DNA of 41,886 nt, from positions 1 through 41,886 of the forward strand of contig JAGBVS010000103.1 of assembly GCA_017630195.1 (NCBI GenBank), in the 5' to 3' direction. The translations under genes and the position numbers were made by a program. This document shows, one piece after another, positions 26,093 through 41,886 of this stretch. A model generated the notes under the pieces. That model worked only from the letters and a program-made list of their open reading frames with translations. It was not told the DNA's origin and did not search any database. Each line of letters opens with the position of its first letter. Position 1 is the first letter of the stretch. The DNA comes from Bacteroidales bacterium (GTDB lineage: Bacteria; Bacteroidota; Bacteroidia; Bacteroidales; F082).

Positions 26093-26106
26093 AGGGGGTG
26101 GTGGAT

Positions 26107-28371
26107 ATGGATTTATTATTAGCACAAGATATTACTACAGACAGTATTTATAGCTCGAATATTGCACCTGTAGGTGCTGGCAGCACTATTATCTTGCAAG
26201 ATCGTGTGTTGGAATATCAAATTAATCTTACAAGTGATTTGGCAATTTCAATTGACACATCTAAACTCAGTGAGTTCACGAAGTATAATTGTGCATTTAC
26301 TCTTATTGTTAACAGTAACGGTGACCACGTTATTAATCTTGAAAATTGTGATATTCAACAAATACAAGTGTGGCGTGGCGTGACCAAAATATCATTTACA
26401 CATTTACTGGGCGCAGCACAGTGGAGAGTAAAAATCTTACAAGTTGGGAATCAGGTTGCGGAATATGTTAGGCCAACTGGACAGTTTGATATACCAAACT
26501 CAGGATATTATGGAGTTGCAACTTCTCAATTAGCAAATTATACCGGTGCAGGTTGTCAGATTTTTGCGTATTCTAATATAACTACTCCGGAGACGCTTAA
26601 TACCAATAATTGGTATATATATTGGATGACTGGAAGTATTGAGTTATACACTGTCTTCCCAGCGCCGTTTCTTCTTACAGAGTGGAGAATGCATGTGTCT
26701 GGCACATTGACCTATAACTTTCCTACTAGCATTACGATATATGGAAGTAACGATTATGAGAATTGGAACGAAGTATTTTCAGCGGCCGATATAACTTATA
26801 CAGTATCGCAGGAAATCAAGCGTTTTACACCAACTGTTTTGAGGCCTTATCGTGCTTATAAATGGGTATTGAGTCGCGCGGCAAGTGCTAGTATTGATGT
26901 TGTACCTATTTCACTAATCGGATATAAATGCCCGAAGATTGGCAATCTCAACTTCTATCGATATCCAAAAATATCAGACGCAACGAGTGGATACGAATTA
27001 TCGGTTAATACCGAAGATGGAATAAATGTGAATTGGCCGTTATATAATTGTGTAAACACTGATCAATCCTCTAGTGCGCGCGCGGAATTTATTAGGACGT
27101 CTTCAGATGTACCAATAAAAATAACCTATAAATTACCACAGGCAGTGCGTTTTGAAGGTTTTGTTGTCCGTGATTTTGAGACTTATTACAAGTGGTATTG
27201 TAATGGTTGGTTCAAGTGGGAAGGCTCAAATGACGGTGTAACTTGGACAAGGTTATGTGAATTAAGAAAGCCATTTGGAGACATTAATATTTCTTATATG
27301 TGGTTTATGTATATGTGTCATACGCAAGGTACTTACAATAGGTTTAGGATAACCGTTTACACAGTATATAACGAACAAGAAAACGATTTATTGACGTGCG
27401 GATTATTCCCTATTTATACAATTCCAAATGAGTATAGGCAGTTTGATACAATAGTTCCTGTTATGGAAAGTGATACTCAAGAAGGATATACAGTATCCTC
27501 GAGTAGTGTAACAAGTGGTTATACGTATAATATGTATGATGCTAATGATACAACATATTGCCAAGGCGCTATATCAGATGGCCAATGGATAACCTTAATT
27601 GATATGGGTGAAAGTGTGGTTGTTAAGGGCTTTCAATTACAAGCGGCAAGCGATAATTATACGAAAATGCCTATAACGTTTTCGATACAGGGCAGCACAG
27701 ACAATGACTCATGGCAATTATTGCAATCTTATGCATTAGGAGCCGCAGGTTGGAGTGCTAATAGCCAAATACAATCGTTTACAGTTTCTAATACTACAGG
27801 CTATAGGTATTATAGAATTGTGGTGACAGCCGTTCAGGATGGTGGAACTGATGTGCGTATTGCAGGGCTAGGCTGGAGTAGTGCAGCCGGGCAGCCGCCA
27901 ATTGCATATTATGTTGATGAATATATAGTGCCAGTGATGAGTAGTGATAGTCAGGATGGATATATTGCCACATGTAGTTCGACATGGTCTGCCGAAACAC
28001 CTGCTTATGCAGCCTTTGATAGAAACGCAGACACATTATGGAATACTAGAGGAAAAGTTGATCAGTGGTTACAAATTCAATTACCAACAGCACAGTCGGC
28101 GAATATTCTTTTAATCGTTGCTAGGTCAGATGGATATCTTACAGAAACTCCAAACTCATTTGATATTAAAGCCAGTAATGATGGTAGTGAATGGACTACA
28201 TTAACTACACAATCCAATTTAAGTTGGTCATTAGGAGAAACAAAAAGTTTCAATCTTAATAACACAACACCATATTTATATTATAAGTTTGTTATTAATG
28301 GGAACGGCGGTGGGAATAATTGTGCTATCGCAGAATTTTCTTTAATGAAAAGAATATATCATAATGATTAG
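26107..28371 (+). CDS. Receptor-binding protein with discoidin-like domains (paralogue 1)
   Basis: 754 residues. Four segments carry the F5/8 type C-like signature G-S/A-N-D-x-x-x-W: GSNDYENW near residue 211, GSNDGVTW near 372, GSTDNDSW near 528 and ASNDGSEW near 688. The spacing of about 160 residues indicates four discoidin-like sugar-binding domains, with AFDRNADTLWNT near the C-terminus as in carbohydrate-binding CBM32. Expected to bind host surface glycans. The start is the ATG at 26107 behind AAAGGGGGTGG. Closely related in layout to the next gene. Confidence 0.8.
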   Translation: MDLLLAQDITTDSIYSSNIAPVGAGSTIILQDRVLEYQINLTSDLAISIDTSKLSEFTKYNCAFTLIVNSNGDHVINLENCDIQQIQVWRGVTKISFTHLLGAAQWRVKILQVGNQVAEYVRPTGQFDIPNSGYYGVATSQLANYTGAGCQIFAYSNITTPETLNTNNWYIYWMTGSIELYTVFPAPFLLTEWRMHVSGTLTYNFPTSITIYGSNDYENWNEVFSAADITYTVSQEIKRFTPTVLRPYRAYKWVLSRAASASIDVVPISLIGYKCPKIGNLNFYRYPKISDATSGYELSVNTEDGINVNWPLYNCVNTDQSSSARAEFIRTSSDVPIKITYKLPQAVRFEGFVVRDFETYYKWYCNGWFKWEGSNDGVTWTRLCELRKPFGDINISYMWFMYMCHTQGTYNRFRITVYTVYNEQENDLLTCGLFPIYTIPNEYRQFDTIVPVMESDTQEGYTVSSSSVTSGYTYNMYDANDTTYCQGAISDGQWITLIDMGESVVVKGFQLQAASDNYTKMPITFSIQGSTDNDSWQLLQSYALGAAGWSANSQIQSFTVSNTTGYRYYRIVVTAVQDGGTDVRIAGLGWSSAAGQPPIAYYVDEYIVPVMSSDSQDGYIATCSSTWSAETPAYAAFDRNADTLWNTRGKVDQWLQIQLPTAQSANILLIVARSDGYLTETPNSFDIKASNDGSEWTTLTTQSNLSWSLGETKSFNLNNTTPYLYYKFVINGNGGGNNCAIAEFSLMKRIYHND

Positions 28372-28380
28372 GAGGAAGAC

Positions 28381-30591
28381 ATGGACACTTTATTTTTATC
28401 TCAAGTGCAGCCTAAAACTATATATGGGGCAGATGCAGAATTGTTTTCCGGCGGGACTCTTGTACTTAATGAAACAAAACAAAATTATCAATTAGCATTG
28501 AATGCGACACAATCTTTGACCATAGATACTACTCAACTATCGGGGAAAGCTAATGTATATACAATGACATTTGTTTTGAATGTGGTTGCGAATGGTCATT
28601 ATGTAATCAATTTCCAAGATTGCAATATCGAACAGATGGAATTTTATGAGGGCATGAGTCAGTTGAAATTCACAAAAGCCCCTTGTGATGTAAACTGGAC
28701 TATTGAGGTAATAAGTTATGCAGGAATAGAACCTTCTTTATCGTTGTATGATTGGAACTTAAGAGGTGAGTTTTGTTTGGCGACAGAAACAGCAACCTCT
28801 AAAGAGACGCCAATAAGTATTTGGATGACTTCATTTAATCAAGTGAATAGTAGCAATTGGAATAAGACGTTTAGTGAAAATGAAATAGACTACTATACTT
28901 TTTCATTGAATCCATTTACGTTAACAGAATTTAGCGTACATTATGGCACTTACAGTGCGCAATGCCCTACAGGAATAACTGTATATGGAAGCAACGATTT
29001 TGAAAACTGGGTACAATTATATAATAACCCTGATATCACAGTGACAGGAAGTACGACATTAGCATTTATACCTACTATTATAAGGCCGTTTAAAAATTAT
29101 AAATTTCATTTATCAAATGGAGGCGTCGGAGGAATTATAATGCCGCCGATTAGCTTAAAAGGTATAGGATCAGAATTATTATACGCAGGTTATTTGTTAA
29201 GGTTCCCGAATATTTCAGCAGCATTAAATGGATATGACGTGAGTATTAATACAGAAGACGGATGCGCGAATGCAGATAGTAAAACGCCGTATGGCGCTGT
29301 TAACAACAACTTTATTTCTGTAACGCGCCCTAATCAAAGTACGACTTGGAAAGTAACATATACTTATCCGGAAGCCGTGCGTCCATGCTGTTTTTTTATG
29401 CAAAAATGGGGTAGCTATGTGGATGTATTCCCAGCATGGTTCGCGTGGTATGGGAGCGATGATGGAACTAATTGGACGAAAGCTGTTGAATTACGTAATA
29501 TACTGCCAGTTAATACGTCTCGTAATAGTTTTTTCATATACTATCCTTGCGATTTCGGCAGTTCACATAAGTATTGGCAATTCAGATGTTATGCGACCTA
29601 TAGCAATCCAGATAAGATGTCGGCGGCGGCAATTATTCCGATAGTACCAAGTTATCAATATGCAGAATTTGAAACGATAGTACCTAAATTGAGCGCAGAT
29701 GAGCAATCCGGCTATACTGTTTCAGCAAGTAGTACTACAGACGGCGCAGCCTATAAAATGTATGATGGCGATAGTAATACATATTGCGGGGGCAGTATTA
29801 GTGACGGTTCATGGAGTACGACCATCAATATGGGCGAGTCAGTAATTATTCAGGGTATTCAGATGCGTACCACTTCGGATTGGAACCGTATGCCGACAGT
29901 TTTCAAAGTTCAGGGTAGTAATGATGGTGAAGCGTGGACTGATATATCAACACAAACTCCGGGAAGTAATTTTTGGGAACAAAACACCAATCATGTGTCA
30001 GGAAGTTTTGAATTTGATAACGATACTGCCTACCAATATTATCGTTTATACGTAACCGCGACAGCGCAAGGTACTTATGTGCGTATATGCGATCTTGGTT
30101 GGACTACGAAGATTAGAGGTAATCCTATCGACTATTACACGGAAGAATATGAAGTACCTATAATGAGGAGCAATTCTCAAGACGGTTTCGTATGTGGTGC
30201 AGATTCTACTTTAAGCAGCAATTATCCAGCTTGGCACGCTTTTGACCGTAATGGGAACGATGCATGGGTGAGTAGTAACGGATCGGAATCAGATAGGCAC
30301 TGGATTAAAATAGGGAATACCAACAGTGAAGGAACTATCAGTGGCAATCACGTGTATTTAGTGTTTCATTCAGTGTTATATGCTAAAAATTTTACGATAC
30401 AAGCGAGCAACGATGAGTTAGTATGGGTTGATATACATTCTGTAACTGGTAATACTAATCAATTCGTTCATATTGATTTAGATCAGACTTATACATATAA
30501 ATTTTGGAGTTTACTATGCGAGTTAGGCAACTCAAGCAGAATAGAAGTATTTGTATACGATATAACTACACGTACATTCTATAACAGTTAG
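28381..30591 (+). CDS. Receptor-binding protein with discoidin-like domains (paralogue 2)
   Basis: 736 residues. It shares the full layout of the preceding protein: a similar N-terminus (SIDTSKL/TIDTTQL), signatures GSNDFENW near 202, GSDDGTNW near 357, GSNDGEAW near 511 and ASNDELVW near 674, and a matching C-terminal domain (NSQDGF, AFDRNGNDAW). The similarity spans the whole length but at clearly diverged identity, so this is an old tandem duplication. Two related adhesins could widen host range or assemble as a hetero-oligomeric tip. Behind GGAGG. Confidence 0.8.
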   Translation: MDTLFLSQVQPKTIYGADAELFSGGTLVLNETKQNYQLALNATQSLTIDTTQLSGKANVYTMTFVLNVVANGHYVINFQDCNIEQMEFYEGMSQLKFTKAPCDVNWTIEVISYAGIEPSLSLYDWNLRGEFCLATETATSKETPISIWMTSFNQVNSSNWNKTFSENEIDYYTFSLNPFTLTEFSVHYGTYSAQCPTGITVYGSNDFENWVQLYNNPDITVTGSTTLAFIPTIIRPFKNYKFHLSNGGVGGIIMPPISLKGIGSELLYAGYLLRFPNISAALNGYDVSINTEDGCANADSKTPYGAVNNNFISVTRPNQSTTWKVTYTYPEAVRPCCFFMQKWGSYVDVFPAWFAWYGSDDGTNWTKAVELRNILPVNTSRNSFFIYYPCDFGSSHKYWQFRCYATYSNPDKMSAAAIIPIVPSYQYAEFETIVPKLSADEQSGYTVSASSTTDGAAYKMYDGDSNTYCGGSISDGSWSTTINMGESVIIQGIQMRTTSDWNRMPTVFKVQGSNDGEAWTDISTQTPGSNFWEQNTNHVSGSFEFDNDTAYQYYRLYVTATAQGTYVRICDLGWTTKIRGNPIDYYTEEYEVPIMRSNSQDGFVCGADSTLSSNYPAWHAFDRNGNDAWVSSNGSESDRHWIKIGNTNSEGTISGNHVYLVFHSVLYAKNFTIQASNDELVWVDIHSVTGNTNQFVHIDLDQTYTYKFWSLLCELGNSSRIEVFVYDITTRTFYNS

Positions 30592-30599
30592 GAGGTTTT

Positions 30600-30770
30600 A
30601 TGAGTATAAAAGATTTATTCATTAGCCCGAAAATAAAGGGCATTGTGGCGATTAGTGCGGCAGTTGTTATGTATTTCACGCCTGATGAAGTCGACCACAT
30701 CATAGAAGGCTTATTATCCGTTTTTGGTATTTCAACTTTAGTTATTGGAGAAAAGGAGGAGAAGAAATGA
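30600..30770 (+). CDS. Holin candidate, 56 residues
   Basis: Starts behind TAGGAGG, five bases after a strong site and nine bases after the adhesin gene. The product begins MSIKDLFISPKIKGIVAISA, has a hydrophobic segment (GIVAISAAVVMYF), a short acidic turn (TPDEVDH) and a second hydrophobic segment (IIEGLLSVFGISTLVIG), ending in charged EKEEKK. Two membrane segments and a charged tail fit a class II holin, which would let the endolysin cross the inner membrane. The endolysin is in another operon (33614). Overlaps the next gene by 4 bp. Confidence 0.65.
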   Translation: MSIKDLFISPKIKGIVAISAAVVMYFTPDEVDHIIEGLLSVFGISTLVIGEKEEKK

Positions 30771-31201
30771 AACACGTAGTTTTACTGGGCAGCATATTAA
30801 GTGGATTAGCAATCGGGATGAATCCGATAGAAAACGCAGAAAACAAGCAAGTTGCAAGTAATCCAATTGTGATACAACAGCCGGAGGTAACGAATGCGTA
30901 TATACCGCAACACTATGACCACACAGAAGAGTTTCACCGTGAGAGCGTGTGTTGTTTTCGGTTTCGTAGGTGGATATTGCAACCTATTAGCGTGGTAGTT
31001 CAATTAGTATCGGGTGGCTTAATAGCAGGCGCGCAGTATTGCATAAAAGACGCTCCGAAGCGTGCAGCCGATTTGAACGCTTGGGGATTAGGTACTGGGG
31101 TTGCCGCCTTGGTGATTAATATGCTTTTATTGAGAGTTGACAATAAACTTGAGGATATGGATAAATATATAATGCAAAGAAGAAACAGCAACGAACAATA
31201 A
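30767..31201 (+). CDS. Membrane protein of the lysis region, unknown
   Basis: 144 residues. N-terminal signal-like segment (HVVLLGSILSGLAIG), a polar Gln/Asn-rich linker, then two hydrophobic helices (ISVVVQLVSGGLIAGAQY and LGTGVAALVINMLLL) and a charged C-terminus. It overlaps the holin candidate, so a lysis role (spanin-like or second holin) is possible, but no spanin motif is seen. Its signal region weakly resembles that of the small protein at 39492-39719. Followed by a terminator. Confidence 0.6.
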   Translation: MKHVVLLGSILSGLAIGMNPIENAENKQVASNPIVIQQPEVTNAYIPQHYDHTEEFHRESVCCFRFRRWILQPISVVVQLVSGGLIAGAQYCIKDAPKRAADLNAWGLGTGVAALVINMLLLRVDNKLEDMDKYIMQRRNSNEQ

Positions 31202-31209
31202 CTAACTAT

Positions 31210-31232
31210 AAGCCCCGGAAGGTGTGGGGCTT
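31210..31232 (+). terminator. Intrinsic terminator at end of the structural operon
   Basis: AAGCCCC and GGGGCTT flank a 9-base loop nine bases after the stop of the membrane protein gene, followed by TTTAT. The U-run is short, so some read-through into the 31358 gene is possible. Confidence 0.65.
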
Positions 31233-31357
31233 TATGATCATATTTATTATTTAATCTCATATGAGGAGATCTCATAAATGAAATTTAAGAGAAACATAGA
31301 TAAAATCTAGTTTGTATGATAATTATATTATGGTTGATTGAAGGGAGCAAGAAAATT

Positions 31358-31837
31358 ATGGAAGGAAAAAAAGTGCTTGTATCATTAACAGACGAAGACG
31401 TGCATTGTTTTTTACAAGCAATTAGCGTTCAGACGGTAAAGCTAGAAAATTACTTGGATAGGATATCGAATGATATTAAGGTGATTAAAGAGGCTATAAA
31501 AACAGAGTTAGCACATAGAGAACAGGAAAAACTCGATTTACCGTTTAATCCGATATTGTTAAGAAAAATAGAAAATTGTGGATTGAGTGTGCGATCCACT
31601 AATGCACTTCTTAATAACAATATTTTATATATTGGAGATTTAGTGCATCAATCGCAAAGATCATTATTAGCAATACCATTTTTAGGCAGGAAAAGCCTAA
31701 ATGAAATTAAATGGCTACTATATAATATGGGTTTGGATTTAGAAATGCATATTCCAGACTGGAATCCGGAAACTTTAGCAAAGATCAATCAGAAAATAAA
31801 ATCGAATGTTTCTAATCTTGTTTTAGAAAATCGGTAA
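31358..31837 (+). CDS. Standalone RNA polymerase alpha C-terminal domain-like protein
   Basis: 159 residues from the ATG behind AAGGGAG. Residues 1-60 are charged and helical, possibly a coiled coil, and unrelated to the alpha N-terminal domain. Residues of about 62-140 align with bacterial alpha-CTD from the linker onward: FNPILLR, LSVRSTNAL, YIGDLV, LGRKSLNEIK, MGL. E. coli DNA-contact residues are kept: R265=R79, N268=N82, G296=G110, K298=K112, S299=S113, E302=E116; only C269 is Ala83. The sigma-contact acidic residues D259 and E261 become Asn73 and Gly75. It probably binds AT-rich UP-like DNA and redirects host transcription. The residue pattern is closest to alphaproteobacterial rpoA. 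Confidence 0.88.
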   Translation: MEGKKVLVSLTDEDVHCFLQAISVQTVKLENYLDRISNDIKVIKEAIKTELAHREQEKLDLPFNPILLRKIENCGLSVRSTNALLNNNILYIGDLVHQSQRSLLAIPFLGRKSLNEIKWLLYNMGLDLEMHIPDWNPETLAKINQKIKSNVSNLVLENR

Positions 31838-31858: not shown

Positions 31859-31877
31859 GCCCTCTCGGGTAGAGGGC
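31859..31877. terminator. Hairpin between convergent operons
   Basis: GCCCTCT-CGGGT-AGAGGGC, 7-bp stem. On the minus strand it is followed by TATTTTA, after the leftward operon; on the plus strand a run of seven T comes 10 bases later. A bidirectional terminator is the simplest reading. Confidence 0.6.
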
Positions 31878-31927: not shown

Positions 31928-32341
31928 TTATTGTACCAAAACGCCAGTGGTTTTTAAAACAGTTTCTAAAGTTGGAACATCTCGAATGATATAATATTGA
32001 ATATCATTTTTTTCAGACCATATTTGGAACATTTTTTGAAATTCCGATTGACGGCCTTTTTTTGTTTTGAGTTCGATAAAAAGTGTTTTATCGTGAGTCA
32101 CTATAATAAAATCAGGCGCGCCGGGAATCATTCCTAATTGTTTCTTTTTCATTATTCGAAGCATATCACGTTTAGTTTTTGAAACGGACTCATTTGGCAC
32201 GTGAAAGAACACGCCCTTAAGTTTACCCTCAAGGACGTTGATTTTAAGATAAATAGCTATCTCATTGGTTAGTTTATCTTCACCAGTATACCTACCAGAT
32301 CGTACACCATTTAGCAATTGCAATTCATTTAAAATACTCAA
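31928..32341 (-). CDS. VRR-NUC domain nuclease
   Basis: 137 residues. The VRR-NUC pattern is clear: a helical N-terminus (ESVSKTKRDM), GMIPGAPDFII with Asp77, FIELKTKKG with Glu90 and Lys92, then a QxxF helix. Standalone phage VRR-NUC proteins act as Holliday-junction or flap nucleases in replication and recombination. Last gene of the leftward recombinase-SSB operon; its ATG overlaps the SSB stop by four bases. Confidence 0.88.
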   Translation of the reverse strand: MSILNELQLLNGVRSGRYTGEDKLTNEIAIYLKINVLEGKLKGVFFHVPNESVSKTKRDMLRIMKKKQLGMIPGAPDFIIVTHDKTLFIELKTKKGRQSEFQKMFQIWSEKNDIQYYIIRDVPTLETVLKTTGVLVQ

Positions 32342-34888: not shown

Positions 34889-35155
34889 ATGATGACACTT
34901 TTTCGACCGTATTTTGTGAATTGTGATACACTTTTCAGACCGTTTATTATGCAGTTTTCTACACTTTTTAGACGGACTTTTGGGAGTTCAAAGTCCATTT
35001 TTGGCACGACTTTTAAAAAGTTAGAAATGTGCTGCAAAGTGATTTTTTCACTTTCGCGGGCTTTATTTTTATATTTTCGCGGCAATCGATTTTTATATGA
35101 TCGATCATTTTTTAATTTTGATATTTATATGATGAGGGATTTATGTTTTATGTAA
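34889..35155 (+). CDS. Doubtful ORF over the 33-bp repeats
   Basis: 88 residues starting directly after the previous stop. It encodes an 11-residue repeat (TLFRPYFVNCD, TLFRPFIMQFS, TLFRRTFGSSK, SIFGTTFKKLE) because the DNA repeat is 33 bp. Composition is Phe-rich, the site AGGA is distant, and the ORF overlaps the queD start by 13 bp. I think the DNA repeat is the real feature and the ORF is probably not expressed. Confidence 0.25.
   Translation: MMTLFRPYFVNCDTLFRPFIMQFSTLFRRTFGSSKSIFGTTFKKLEMCCKVIFSLSRALFLYFRGNRFLYDRSFFNFDIYMMRDLCFM
34895..35008. repeat. 33-bp-period direct repeats upstream of queD
   Basis: ACACTTTTTCGACCG (34895), ACACTTTTCAGACCG (34928) and ACACTTTTTAGACGG (34961) start exactly 33 bp apart; a decayed fourth unit (TCCATTTTTGGCACG) starts at 34994, again 33 bp on. 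A spacing of three helical turns puts all sites on one DNA face. Possible roles: protein-binding array, origin iterons or promoter control of the queD-folE operon. Confidence 0.7.
35052..35098. repeat. Short direct repeats before queD
   Basis: TTTCGCGG at 35052 and 35075, each followed by TTTTTATAT (35066 and 35090). Together with the 33-bp repeats, they make the whole 34889-35142 interval look like a regulatory or replication region instead of coding DNA. Another TTTATATGAT pair lies at about 35092 and 35123. Confidence 0.5.
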
Positions 35156-35475
35156 AAAAAAGATTAGAAATTAGTGGAGCGCATCAATTATCACTAGGAT
35201 ATCAAAGTAAATGTGAAAATCTGCACGGACACAATTGGATAATCGAGATTTATTGTAAAAGCGAAACGCTTAATTTAGATGGTATGGTGATCGATTTTTC
35301 GGAGATAAAAAAGCTAATACATGACGCGCTAGATCATAAGAATCTAAACGAAGTTTTTGTGTTCAATCCTACGGCGGAAAATATTGCTAAATGGATATGT
35401 TTACGAGTACCACATTGCTACAAAGTATCAGTGCAAGAAACAGAAGGAAACGAGGCTGTATATGTAGTAGAATAG
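35143..35475 (+). CDS. queD: QueD, 6-carboxy-tetrahydropterin synthase
   Basis: 110 residues. Converts dihydroneopterin triphosphate to 6-carboxy-5,6,7,8-tetrahydropterin, step two of 7-deazaguanine (preQ0/queuosine) synthesis. Zinc ligands His14, His28 and His30 and catalytic Cys24 form CENLHGH (CxxxHGH), the QueD form and not the PTPS-III form; DHKNLNEV follows with the usual Asp-His. The ribosome binding site is GAGGG. The next gene, FolE, supplies its substrate. Phages use this pathway to modify guanine in their DNA, but QueE, QueC and DpdA were not seen. Confidence 0.93.
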   Translation: MFYVKKRLEISGAHQLSLGYQSKCENLHGHNWIIEIYCKSETLNLDGMVIDFSEIKKLIHDALDHKNLNEVFVFNPTAENIAKWICLRVPHCYKVSVQETEGNEAVYVVE

Positions 35476-35498
35476 AGTAGCAATGATGGGGGTTAATA

Positions 35499-36074
35499 AT
35501 GATCAATTTAGAAAAGTTAGAACAGGCAGGGCGTTTAATTATTGAGGGCATTGGAGAAAATCCAGATCGTGAAGGACTAATCGACACGCCGCGCAGATTT
35601 GCAAAAATGATGGAAGAACAATGTAGATATACATCAATCTCAAATAAAGAGATTGCAGAAAAAAATAATAAATGTTTTTATTGCGATAACGATAATATGG
35701 TTATTGTAAAGAACATTGAAGTATTTTCGCGCTGCGAACATCATTTAGCATTGATGTATAACATGCGTATATCAGTTGGCTATATTCCATGCGATAAAGT
35801 GATTGGATTATCAAAGATCGCAAGAATTGCAGACAGTGTGTGTAGGAGATTACAAATACAAGAGCGGATTGGTAAAGATATTTTTGAAATATTATCGGAT
35901 ATACTAGAAACGAGCGATATTATTATATTAATTGAGGCGGAGCATTCTTGTATGACGGCAAGAGGAATATCGAAGCCGGGAACGATCACCAAAACGATAA
36001 CCGCAGGAGGTGTTTTTAGCGCTCCAGCATTGAAGAAAAAAGAGGAATTTTTAGCGGCTATTAGGGGAAATTAG
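35499..36074 (+). CDS. folE: GTP cyclohydrolase I (FolE)
   Basis: 191 residues. Converts GTP to dihydroneopterin triphosphate, the entry to folate and 7-deazaguanine synthesis. Visible elements: GENPDREGLIDTPRR, zinc ligands Cys79 and His82 in SRCEHH and Cys151 in HSCMTARG, His149 at the active site, and GYIPCDKVIGLSKIARI. Complete and of the usual length, so it is probably active. Lies 23 bp after queD and 3 bp before the ParB-like gene. Confidence 0.95.
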   Translation: MINLEKLEQAGRLIIEGIGENPDREGLIDTPRRFAKMMEEQCRYTSISNKEIAEKNNKCFYCDNDNMVIVKNIEVFSRCEHHLALMYNMRISVGYIPCDKVIGLSKIARIADSVCRRLQIQERIGKDIFEILSDILETSDIIILIEAEHSCMTARGISKPGTITKTITAGGVFSAPALKKKEEFLAAIRGN

Positions 36075-36077
36075 ATT

Positions 36078-36656
36078 ATGAAACAAAACTTAGAATTTGA
36101 ATACGTTGAGGCTAAAAAGCTAGTGCCATATGTTAGGAATGCCAAGACGCATTCTGAAACGCAAATTAAAAAGATAATGGGAAGTATAACGGAATTTGGC
36201 TTTATTGCTCCGATCATTATTGATAAGGATAATAATGTATTAGCAGGACACGGGCGGTTACTGGCGGCGGATAGATTAGGGCTGGAGAAAGTGCCTTGTG
36301 TAAGAGAAGATCACTTAACGGAAACGCAACGTAAGGCGTACATTTTGGCAGACAATCGAATCGGAGAGCTGGCGGGTTGGGATGATGAACTACTCAAGGT
36401 TGAATTAGAAGAGTTGAAAGTCGATGATTTCGATTTGGATATACTTGGATTCGAAAACTTCAATTTCAATATTCCTACAGTACTCAGTGATTTAGAAGAG
36501 GGAGCTTTTCTTGAAAAATTTGAGAAAGAAAGTGAAATATTTTCTATTACTTTTCATTTCCCTAAAGAAAAAGAAACTGAATTGCTACAAAAACTTAAGG
36601 AGATCGGCAAAGATGAAGTCGTTAAAGAAATAATGATTTTTTTAGGAGTAAATTAA
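36078..36656 (+). CDS. ParB-like domain protein (methyltransferase-associated type)
   Basis: 192 residues. ParB/Srx fold at about residues 5-105: KLVPYVRNAKTHSETQIKKI, ITEFGFIAPIIIDKDNNVLA, GHGRLLAADRLGLEKVP. The following LADNRIGELAGWDDELL segment is the form fused to DNA adenine methyltransferases in phages, but here the methylase domain is missing; a 60-residue acidic tail replaces it. It is not a chromosome-segregation ParB: there is no ParA and no central HTH. Its ATG is 3 bp after folE and its stop shares a base with the radical SAM gene start, so it may guide that enzyme to DNA. Confidence 0.8.
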   Translation: MKQNLEFEYVEAKKLVPYVRNAKTHSETQIKKIMGSITEFGFIAPIIIDKDNNVLAGHGRLLAADRLGLEKVPCVREDHLTETQRKAYILADNRIGELAGWDDELLKVELEELKVDDFDLDILGFENFNFNIPTVLSDLEEGAFLEKFEKESEIFSITFHFPKEKETELLQKLKEIGKDEVVKEIMIFLGVN

Positions 36657-37675
36657 TGCCAGTATGCGGCTCTCAGTGTATTTTTTGCGATATTCCAGTG
36701 AGGATTGACAGTTATAAAGGCTGTTCACATGCTTGTAAATATTGTTTTGTTTATCGAAAATACGATATTTCAAAGATCAAGTTAGGCGATAGTGTACAAA
36801 GTATTGCAAACTTTATCCATGGGAAACGAAATGCAACTACTCTGTGGTGCGATTGGAATATCCCTTTACATTGGGGAGGCATGTCGGATCCATTTCAACC
36901 ATGCGAACGAAAATATAAAAGGTCATTAGAAATACTCAAAGTATTCGCTCAATATCGTTATCCATTTATCGTAAGCACAAAAAGTACATTACCTTTGGAA
37001 GAACCATACTACAGCTTACTAAAAAAATGTAATTGTGTTTTTCAATGTTCAATGGTTTGTCCATCATTGAGTAAAATGGAGGCTGGCGCGCCAAATTTCG
37101 ATGAACGACTTAAAATGATAGAGAAGATATCTAAAATTGTTCCGCGAGCGATCGTGAGGTGCCAACCGTATATAATGGAATTACACAAGGAAATTTTAGA
37201 TCAGATTCCTCGCATTGCAAAAGCCGGAGTTTATGGGATAACTTATGAGGCAATCAAAATGCAAAAGAAAACTTCTGGCATGATTAAAAATGGTTCAGAT
37301 TACGTTTATCCTCTCGAAATCTTAAAAAGAAAGTTTTATGAGTTAAAACAGGAATGTCACAAGTATGGTCTTGCATTTTTTTCAGGCGAAAATCGCTTGC
37401 GACACATGGGAGATAGTTTGACTTGTTGTGGTTGTGAAGGCGTACCTGGTTTCTATGCAAATAAATACAATCTAAATTATTATGTACATAATCCTAATCA
37501 ATTAATTAGTACTGAAGCAATGACAAAAAAAAGGACAGCGTTATGTTTCCGATCGATTGAAATGGAGACATATGCAGATAGAGTTTTGGGAAATTCTTCT
37601 TTTAAAGAAATTATGGATATTGCTTTCAAAGATAAAAAATTTGTTAGTGATTATATAGGGGACGAAAAGAATTAA
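36656..37675 (+). CDS. Radical SAM enzyme, SplB-like
   Basis: 339 residues. The 4Fe-4S motif CxxxCxxC is at Cys23, Cys27 and Cys30 (KGCSHACKYCFVY). An N-terminal Cys trio (Cys4, Cys8, Cys11) and late pairs (LTCCGCEG) could hold a second cluster. GGMSDPFQPCE and IVSTKSTL match the spore photoproduct lyase/SplB-like family core. Substrate unknown; family members act on DNA lesions or modified bases. It is not recognisably QueE, which is shorter. Translationally coupled to the ParB-like gene (TAATG), in one operon with queD and folE, so a nucleic-acid modification role is inferred. Confidence 0.8.
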   Translation: MPVCGSQCIFCDIPVRIDSYKGCSHACKYCFVYRKYDISKIKLGDSVQSIANFIHGKRNATTLWCDWNIPLHWGGMSDPFQPCERKYKRSLEILKVFAQYRYPFIVSTKSTLPLEEPYYSLLKKCNCVFQCSMVCPSLSKMEAGAPNFDERLKMIEKISKIVPRAIVRCQPYIMELHKEILDQIPRIAKAGVYGITYEAIKMQKKTSGMIKNGSDYVYPLEILKRKFYELKQECHKYGLAFFSGENRLRHMGDSLTCCGCEGVPGFYANKYNLNYYVHNPNQLISTEAMTKKRTALCFRSIEMETYADRVLGNSSFKEIMDIAFKDKKFVSDYIGDEKN

Positions 37676-41559: not shown

Positions 41560-41886
41560 TCAACTGTAAATTATCGGGCGCATAACACATCGACAAAACG
41601 GCGCTTGTCCGGGGAACCCAGTTTCACCTGTACGTTGATCGATTACAGGAGGATTTTTCACATCAAAGATTTTACCGTTTAGGACGTGGAGGTGATATTC
41701 ACGTGGAGTGAGGCCACCGTGTGTGTGTATCCACTCAAATTTTTCAATTCCGGCATCTCGGAATTTTTGCAAATTCAAACTCATATACGCTTTGGATATT
41801 TGATCTTCAGCAATGAGATCAGCGCGCCGCAAGGTAGTTTGACCGATTTTATATATACGTTGAGTTAAGTCTTCATGTGAAAGGCC
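41560..41886 (-). CDS. MuF-like minor head protein, C-terminal part (continues at 639-1)
   Basis: End of the gene that starts at 639 and crosses the circular join; 41746-41886 duplicates 1-141. The C-terminus is diagnostic for MuF: HTHGGLTPREYHLHVLNGKI, then PPVIDQRTGETGFPGQAPFC and RCVMRPI. Stop TGA at 41562-41560. The domain lies inside the capsid next to the portal and is typical of Mu gpF and SPP1 gp7-type proteins. The next leftward gene, the HTH regulator, starts 62 bp on. Confidence 0.92.
   Translation of the reverse strand, partial: GLSHEDLTQRIYKIGQTTLRRADLIAEDQISKAYMSLNLQKFRDAGIEKFEWIHTHGGLTPREYHLHVLNGKIFDVKNPPVIDQRTGETGFPGQAPFCRCVMRPIIYS
41746..41886. repeat. Terminal direct repeat (right copy), circular-assembly overlap
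   Basis: Identical to 1-141. The repeated segment is coding (MuF), which also argues for an assembly overlap of a circular or permuted genome rather than a functional terminal repeat. Confidence 0.95.

Follow-up and report, generated by a model that had tools for sequence, protein, structure and literature searches.

The window analysed here, 41,886 nucleotides in length, is a whole contig (G000:C82:1-41886). Its ends carry an exact 141-base repeat (1-141 and 41746-41886) and were therefore read as those of a closed circular assembly. Terminase, major capsid, DUF2213, DUF3383, baseplate J, tail and F5/8-type-C adhesin-like genes are present, and the contig probably represents a closed phage genome. 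The locus of interest contains an open reading frame, starting with ATG, for a free C-terminal domain of the RNA polymerase alpha subunit (alpha-CTD). The ORF, its parts and its surroundings are as follows.

30767-31201: small gene, upstream neighbour of the alpha-CTD gene
31207..31236, plus strand: GC-rich hairpin, possible terminator, separating the alpha-CTD gene from its upstream neighbour
31341..31347, plus strand: ribosome-binding-site-like AAGGGAG, 10 nt 5' of the alpha-CTD gene's ATG, read in the sequence
31358..31837, plus strand: free alpha-CTD gene, ORF of 159 aa, Pfam PF03118 E 1.9e-16
31421..31504, plus strand: predicted coiled coil, likely dimerisation segment; residues 22-49, heptad pattern
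31541..31801, plus strand: linker end and alpha-CTD to the alpha C-terminus; residues 62-148, aligned to residues 238-335 of alpha of 7ye1
31859..31877, no strand assigned: GC-rich hairpin, possible terminator, separating the alpha-CTD gene from the nuclease-like gene that converges on it
31928-32341: nuclease-like gene, convergent neighbour of the alpha-CTD gene

An alternative in-frame ATG at 31316 would give a protein of 173 aa. The segment 31200-31245, containing the hairpin 5' of the gene, folds with -12.9 kcal/mol; this hairpin was not called by the terminator search, and the hairpin 3' of the gene is terminator-like on the minus strand. Terminator-like sites (3 found, 2.1 expected) and promoter-like sites near the gene (10 found, 13.1 expected) were no commoner than chance.

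Pfam searches placed residues 65-121 of the protein in PF03118 (60 bits; cut-off 23.8), and this was the sole match at E <= 1. At the same Pfam threshold, neither the N-terminal assembly domain of alpha (aNTD) nor sigma-70 region 4 (Sigma70_r4) was found. The best NCBIfam match was the rpoA model (E 1.4e-28, residues 45-148), and its 99.9 bits lie far under the model's whole-protein cut-off of 302 bits, as they should for a fragment. The best PDB match was the alpha subunit of 7ye1 (E 1.9e-25, residues 51-148, 93 bits). A PHROGs search placed the protein in no family. Judged from these matches, the alpha-CTD identity of the ORF is confirmed far beyond chance, and an alpha-CTD fold is predicted from the alignment to solved alpha-CTDs. 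The original prediction, a standalone phage-encoded alpha-CTD devoid of the alpha N-terminal domain, therefore stands: PF03118 is the only Pfam domain and the window carries phage genes. The highest identity of the domain to any row in the trees described below is 54%.

The DNA-contact residues of E. coli alpha, which we take to be R265, N268, N294, G296, K298, S299 and E302, were located in the alignment. R79, N82, G110, K112, S113 and E116 of the window protein are aligned with R265, N268, G296, K298, S299 and E302, exactly as had been proposed. The accompanying claim that DNA contacts are kept holds for these six of the seven positions but fails at N294, where a change to Phe108 had been overlooked. 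Asn occupies this position in 165/165 cellular alphas and in 58 of 61 distinct viral domains (see below), with Tyr in the remaining three. C269 and K271 are replaced by Ala83 and Leu85. At the sigma-contact positions D259 and E261 the window protein has Asn73 and Gly75, while cellular alphas are acidic at 259 in 165/165 and at 261 in 161/165 cases, so the reported loss of both acids was borne out. Arg265 of E. coli alpha is described as a DNA contact in a passage of PMC2988021. The window protein thus resembles bacterial alpha in matching PF03118 through to the alpha C-terminus and in most of its DNA-contact residues, and differs in having no aNTD, a predicted coiled-coil N-terminus instead, no sigma-contact acids and Phe for N294.

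The first 62 residues include 21 K, R, D or E. Residues 22-49 have a heptad contrast of 5.37 compared with a shuffle mean of 2.96, a fraction of 0.002 of 2000 shuffles being as good. Because of this heptad pattern, we infer that the protein dimerises. Among viral relatives, 37 N-terminal extensions had at least 34 residues; with four lacking a proline-free window, 33 were testable, and in this rough test 12 of them reached p <= 0.05 (uncorrected).

Searches with the single window protein revealed no relatives, matching 4 stretches in viral contigs and 62 in genome contigs. The viral family was reached only by an alignment query, which in IMG/VR gave 211 candidate stretches and 111 relatives, of which 80 were kept; their ORFs are 93-371 aa long. 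PF03118 was detected in 62 of 63 distinct complete viral ORFs (63/64 counting the window). A profile of the aNTD was made from 61 cellular sequences; in a control it gave 165 matches among cellular ORFs at E <= 1e-5, and it matched 0/98 viral ORFs at E <= 1; the 98 are the 80 ORFs, duplicates and two truncated ones included, and 18 from the fusion-seeded scan below. With PF03118, no aNTD and a viral genome, the window protein fits this group of viral free alpha-CTDs. The uniqueness implied earlier was wrong, since such proteins are common across viral contigs. For many of these loci, assignment to a phage rests on IMG/VR. When 10 large neighbour ORFs, one from each of 10 viral loci, were checked against PHROGs, five had hits (two to DNA polymerase and one each to integrase, DNA methyltransferase and primase/helicase), none of them structural, and the other five had none. 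Extra alpha-CTDs are uncommon in cells, because only 13 of 299 Pseudomonadota-level genomes showed more than one match, 286 of the 299 having an alpha-CTD match at all. Two alpha-CTD-like matches were also seen within an 875-residue open frame of a relative of the bin (G024:C1:18744-19283).

Across the 61 viral domains, all distinct, agreement with the cellular residue averages 94% in the seven DNA-contact columns, compared with 67% in 13 further columns whose conservation in cells is 97% or more; a fraction of 0.0002 of 20000 random column draws did as well. All 61 domains had matched an IMG/VR search pattern, and the patterns contain DNA- and sigma-contact columns, so this first test is partly circular. 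It was repeated on columns outside the patterns. For the 41 domains that had matched the first pattern alone, DNA contacts were retained in 106/121 cases versus 251/392 for the other columns (p 0.028), and for the 17 that had matched the second alone in 94/102 versus 108/162 (p 0.0019). DNA-contact columns are therefore the best-kept class in the viral family, also with the search bias controlled. The sigma-contact pair is both acidic in 29 viral domains, has one acid in 22, neither in 5 and a gap in 5, with the sigma columns of domains found by the second pattern being biased towards acids. At least one acid is kept in 51 of the 56 domains with no gap there, which argues that absence of sigma contact is no family trait; taken as a general rule, the loss of both contacts does not hold, being a minority state (5/56). 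The viral family keeps its DNA grip and loosens sigma contact in part, and the window protein lies at the loose end.

Sigma70_r4 was found in 7 of 64 proteins scanned (L105, L111, L115, L118, L124, L134 and L141). A second scan seeded with these fusions gave 140 relatives, of which 80 were kept. Twenty loci, 18 of them distinct, were picked because their match reached towards the sigma part; PF03118 is present in 17 of the 18 distinct ORFs and Sigma70_r4 in 15, so that at least 14 have both, and given the picking 15/18 is no frequency. In all, sigma-70 region 4 and an alpha-CTD are fused in at least 21 distinct viral ORFs. Judged from domain matches, the fusions put promoter-recognition parts together in one ORF, and a single chain of this kind would be naturally suited to reading two promoter elements. 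Some of the ORFs with both domains (the L105-L141 set and the A4 ORFs) carry a further HTH domain.

Named phages yielded 17 matching records at E <= 0.01, two of which are the same Ruegeria phage V16. Five records, from Acinetobacter MD-2021a (two) and Salmonella (three), were taken for host DNA because their annotation names host rpoA or the stretch they match is the one that rpoA matches; unannotated Listeria, Staphylococcus and Enterococcus records may likewise be host DNA. Bacillus phage vB_BmeM-Goe8 encodes an alpha-CTD like that of the window (gp005/gp073, annotated 'RNA polymerase subunit alpha'). In gp005, PF03118 covers residues 147-203 of 210 (E 4.3e-22) and Pfam finds no aNTD. Unlike the window's, the Goe8 protein has another N-terminal part, lies at annotated duplicate genome ends and comes from a phage of a Bacillus host. 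Its copies are annotated at 1959-2591 and 156106-156738, coordinates that, taken from the annotation with the ends unaligned, fit a terminal repeat of about 7.4 kb. In SPO1, which is related to Goe8, most early host-takeover genes are placed within a 12.4-kb terminal region by a passage of PMC6873191. Outside the alpha-CTD, residues 1-143 of Goe8 gp005 (L287 1959-2591, L303) match a stretch of Bacillus phage SBSphiC. Ruegeria phage vB_RpoS-V16 gp23 is another phage-encoded alpha-CTD (PF03118 E 1.2e-10), differing from the window protein in a C-terminal part that matches pyrophosphatase-annotated phage proteins. Erythrobacter phage L02, an alphaproteobacterial phage, has an ORF40 annotated as an alpha-CTD protein (PMC9127768), a likeness by annotation.

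Phage strategies against the alpha-CTD and UP elements are described in passages of two sources: T4 Alt and ModA modify Arg265 of alpha (PMC2988021), and LUZ19 Rac leads to a cleavage that frees the alpha-CTD (PMC7552054), so that infection with Rac also releases a free alpha-CTD. As far as these passages go, Rac and Alt/ModA cut or modify host alpha, whereas the phage of the window supplies the loose domain itself, which would be a different and simple route. In the open-access literature searched, annotations were found, but neither free alpha-CTDs encoded by phages nor sigma-region-4/alpha-CTD fusions were the subject of a study.

The strongest host promoters are driven by alpha-CTD and UP elements, and alpha without its N-terminal domain cannot enter RNA polymerase. 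Having no aNTD, the window protein should therefore be unable to be built into the enzyme. The explanation we prefer, and give an even chance of being right, is that it acts as a dimeric free alpha-CTD which occupies UP-element-like DNA and disturbs host promoters. An alpha-CTD captured with most of its DNA grip and joined to a coiled coil would probably form a dimer. The dimer would most likely bind upstream DNA rich in A and T, the usual behaviour of alpha-CTDs; for B. subtilis, a passage of PMC2801614 describes binding of an AT-rich promoter by the isolated domain. The free UP-element binder proposed at first is thus a plausible idea. With its sigma-contact acids lost, it should give sigma-bound polymerase no help at such DNA, and by occupying UP-element-like sites it could depress strong host promoters or change which promoters prevail in the infected cell. 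Dimerisation, DNA binding and competition with the host alpha-CTD are all predicted rather than observed features of the window protein. Counted for this explanation are the domain, its contacts, the family, the selection on it, the coiled coil, the fusions and the Goe8 ends with their SPO1 parallel. The N294F change is a main weakness of the UP-element-occupant reading. Also counted against it are the position of the gene, which adjoins late and lysis genes rather than lying in an evident early region, the chance level of promoter-like sites there, the sigma-contact acids kept by most viral domains and the absence of the gene from the closest phage relative.

The free domain may instead be a protein decoy that titrates host activators or other partners, so that activator-dependent promoters fail and DNA binding is secondary. 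Spx, ComA and ResD act through the alpha-CTD in B. subtilis (a passage of PMC2801614), CRP docks on it in E. coli (a passage of PMC2988021), and N294F weakens the DNA reading; we nevertheless consider a decoy unlikely, the DNA-contact columns being the best-kept class across the viral family. It is quite unlikely that the protein is a positive regulator, binding phage upstream DNA while its N-terminal segment helps host polymerase to start phage genes. Such promoter-directed roles fit the region 4/alpha-CTD fusions, and T4 early promoters use UP elements (a passage of PMC2988021), but the window protein has neither sigma region 4 nor another polymerase-binding domain recognised by Pfam, and its sigma-contact acids are lost. 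We regard as very unlikely a DNA-binding module reused outside transcription, for example for tethering an activity or shielding DNA: the Ruegeria phage V16 domain is joined to a region of the pyrophosphatase-annotated kind, yet Pfam, PHROGs and NCBIfam reveal no catalytic partner domain in the window protein. A decaying relic without function, which the long branch (0.95 to 2.37 changes per site), N294F and absence from the closest phage would fit, is highly improbable given an intact ORF, a ribosome-binding-site-like sequence, six of seven DNA contacts and many viral relatives with the same conservation.

A broader, more tentative proposal, with somewhat less than an even chance, is that phages repeatedly took the host alpha-CTD and made it into free promoter-directed regulators, either coiled-coil dimers like that predicted for the window protein or single chains pairing region 4 as a -35 reader with the alpha-CTD as an UP-element reader. 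As a general type of viral promoter mimic, these would serve to take over the host or to switch promoters. The many viral loose alpha-CTDs suggest a means by which phages could disturb or direct host gene expression, and the family offers direct tests of which alpha-CTD surfaces matter once freed from the polymerase.

An alphaproteobacterial source had also been suggested for the domain. The sequence is indeed alphaproteobacterial-like: 7ye1, presumably from Caulobacter, scored 93 bits compared with near 61-65 bits for other PDB alphas, which we take to be most of the gammaproteobacterial ones, and 77 of the best 80 loci listed in a species-genome scan were titled as alphaproteobacteria. The rpoA gene of the bin itself is carried by a different contig, and its match to the domain is distant (32% over 81 residues). 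The trees were not decisive. The window's set in a quick tree comprised 14 alphaproteobacterial rows and 6 viral ones, and three viral rows were grouped with relatives of the bin; the tree was set aside as non-optimal, constrained searches being 19 to 20 log-likelihood units better, and independent captures are therefore not rested on that tree alone. In a careful cellular-only tree (54 domains, cellular ones plus that of the window), relatives of the bin were separated from Pseudomonadota with support 100/99, and the window fell on the Pseudomonadota side. Its branch is very long across the trees, however, and grouping it with the bin's own relatives was not rejected by the AU test (p 0.194).

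Among capsid relatives, the ten commonest first words were proteobacterial and covered 481/514 named phage records; relatives were found in 0/148 other genomes related to the bin, 4/385 in the class of G124 and 0/153 in the order of G124. Terminase matches (1201 records) were spread over many hosts, Streptococcus being the commonest first word. Tetranucleotide correlations gave no separation, with 0.46, 0.40, 0.39 and 0.22 for the bin against 0.23, 0.39, 0.39 and 0.20 for stretches of one alphaproteobacterial order. The contig is probably misplaced in its bin, and a proteobacterial host is the likelier one.

The closest phage found, IMG/VR 3300031998_000150 (G100), has 49,362 bases and an end repeat of 127 bases. 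Across most of the structural region, window ORFs are about 24-74% identical to it. G100 has no alpha-CTD, which makes the gene dispensable in this lineage; between its homologues of the genes flanking the alpha-CTD gene lie other small ORFs. Two neighbouring adhesin-like genes of the window (26098-28371, with F5/8-type-C domains, and 28381-30591) match the same G100 stretch and look like a tandem duplication. The segment 31928-33444 (nuclease-like, SSB and serine recombinase genes) is reversed relative to its neighbours compared with G100; an invertible switch was considered there, and no long flanking inverted repeat was listed. Finally, 35143-37675 contains a 339-aa ORF with no Pfam match together with PTPS/QueD-like, GTP cyclohydrolase I and ParB-like genes, a set that may serve 7-deazaguanine DNA modification.
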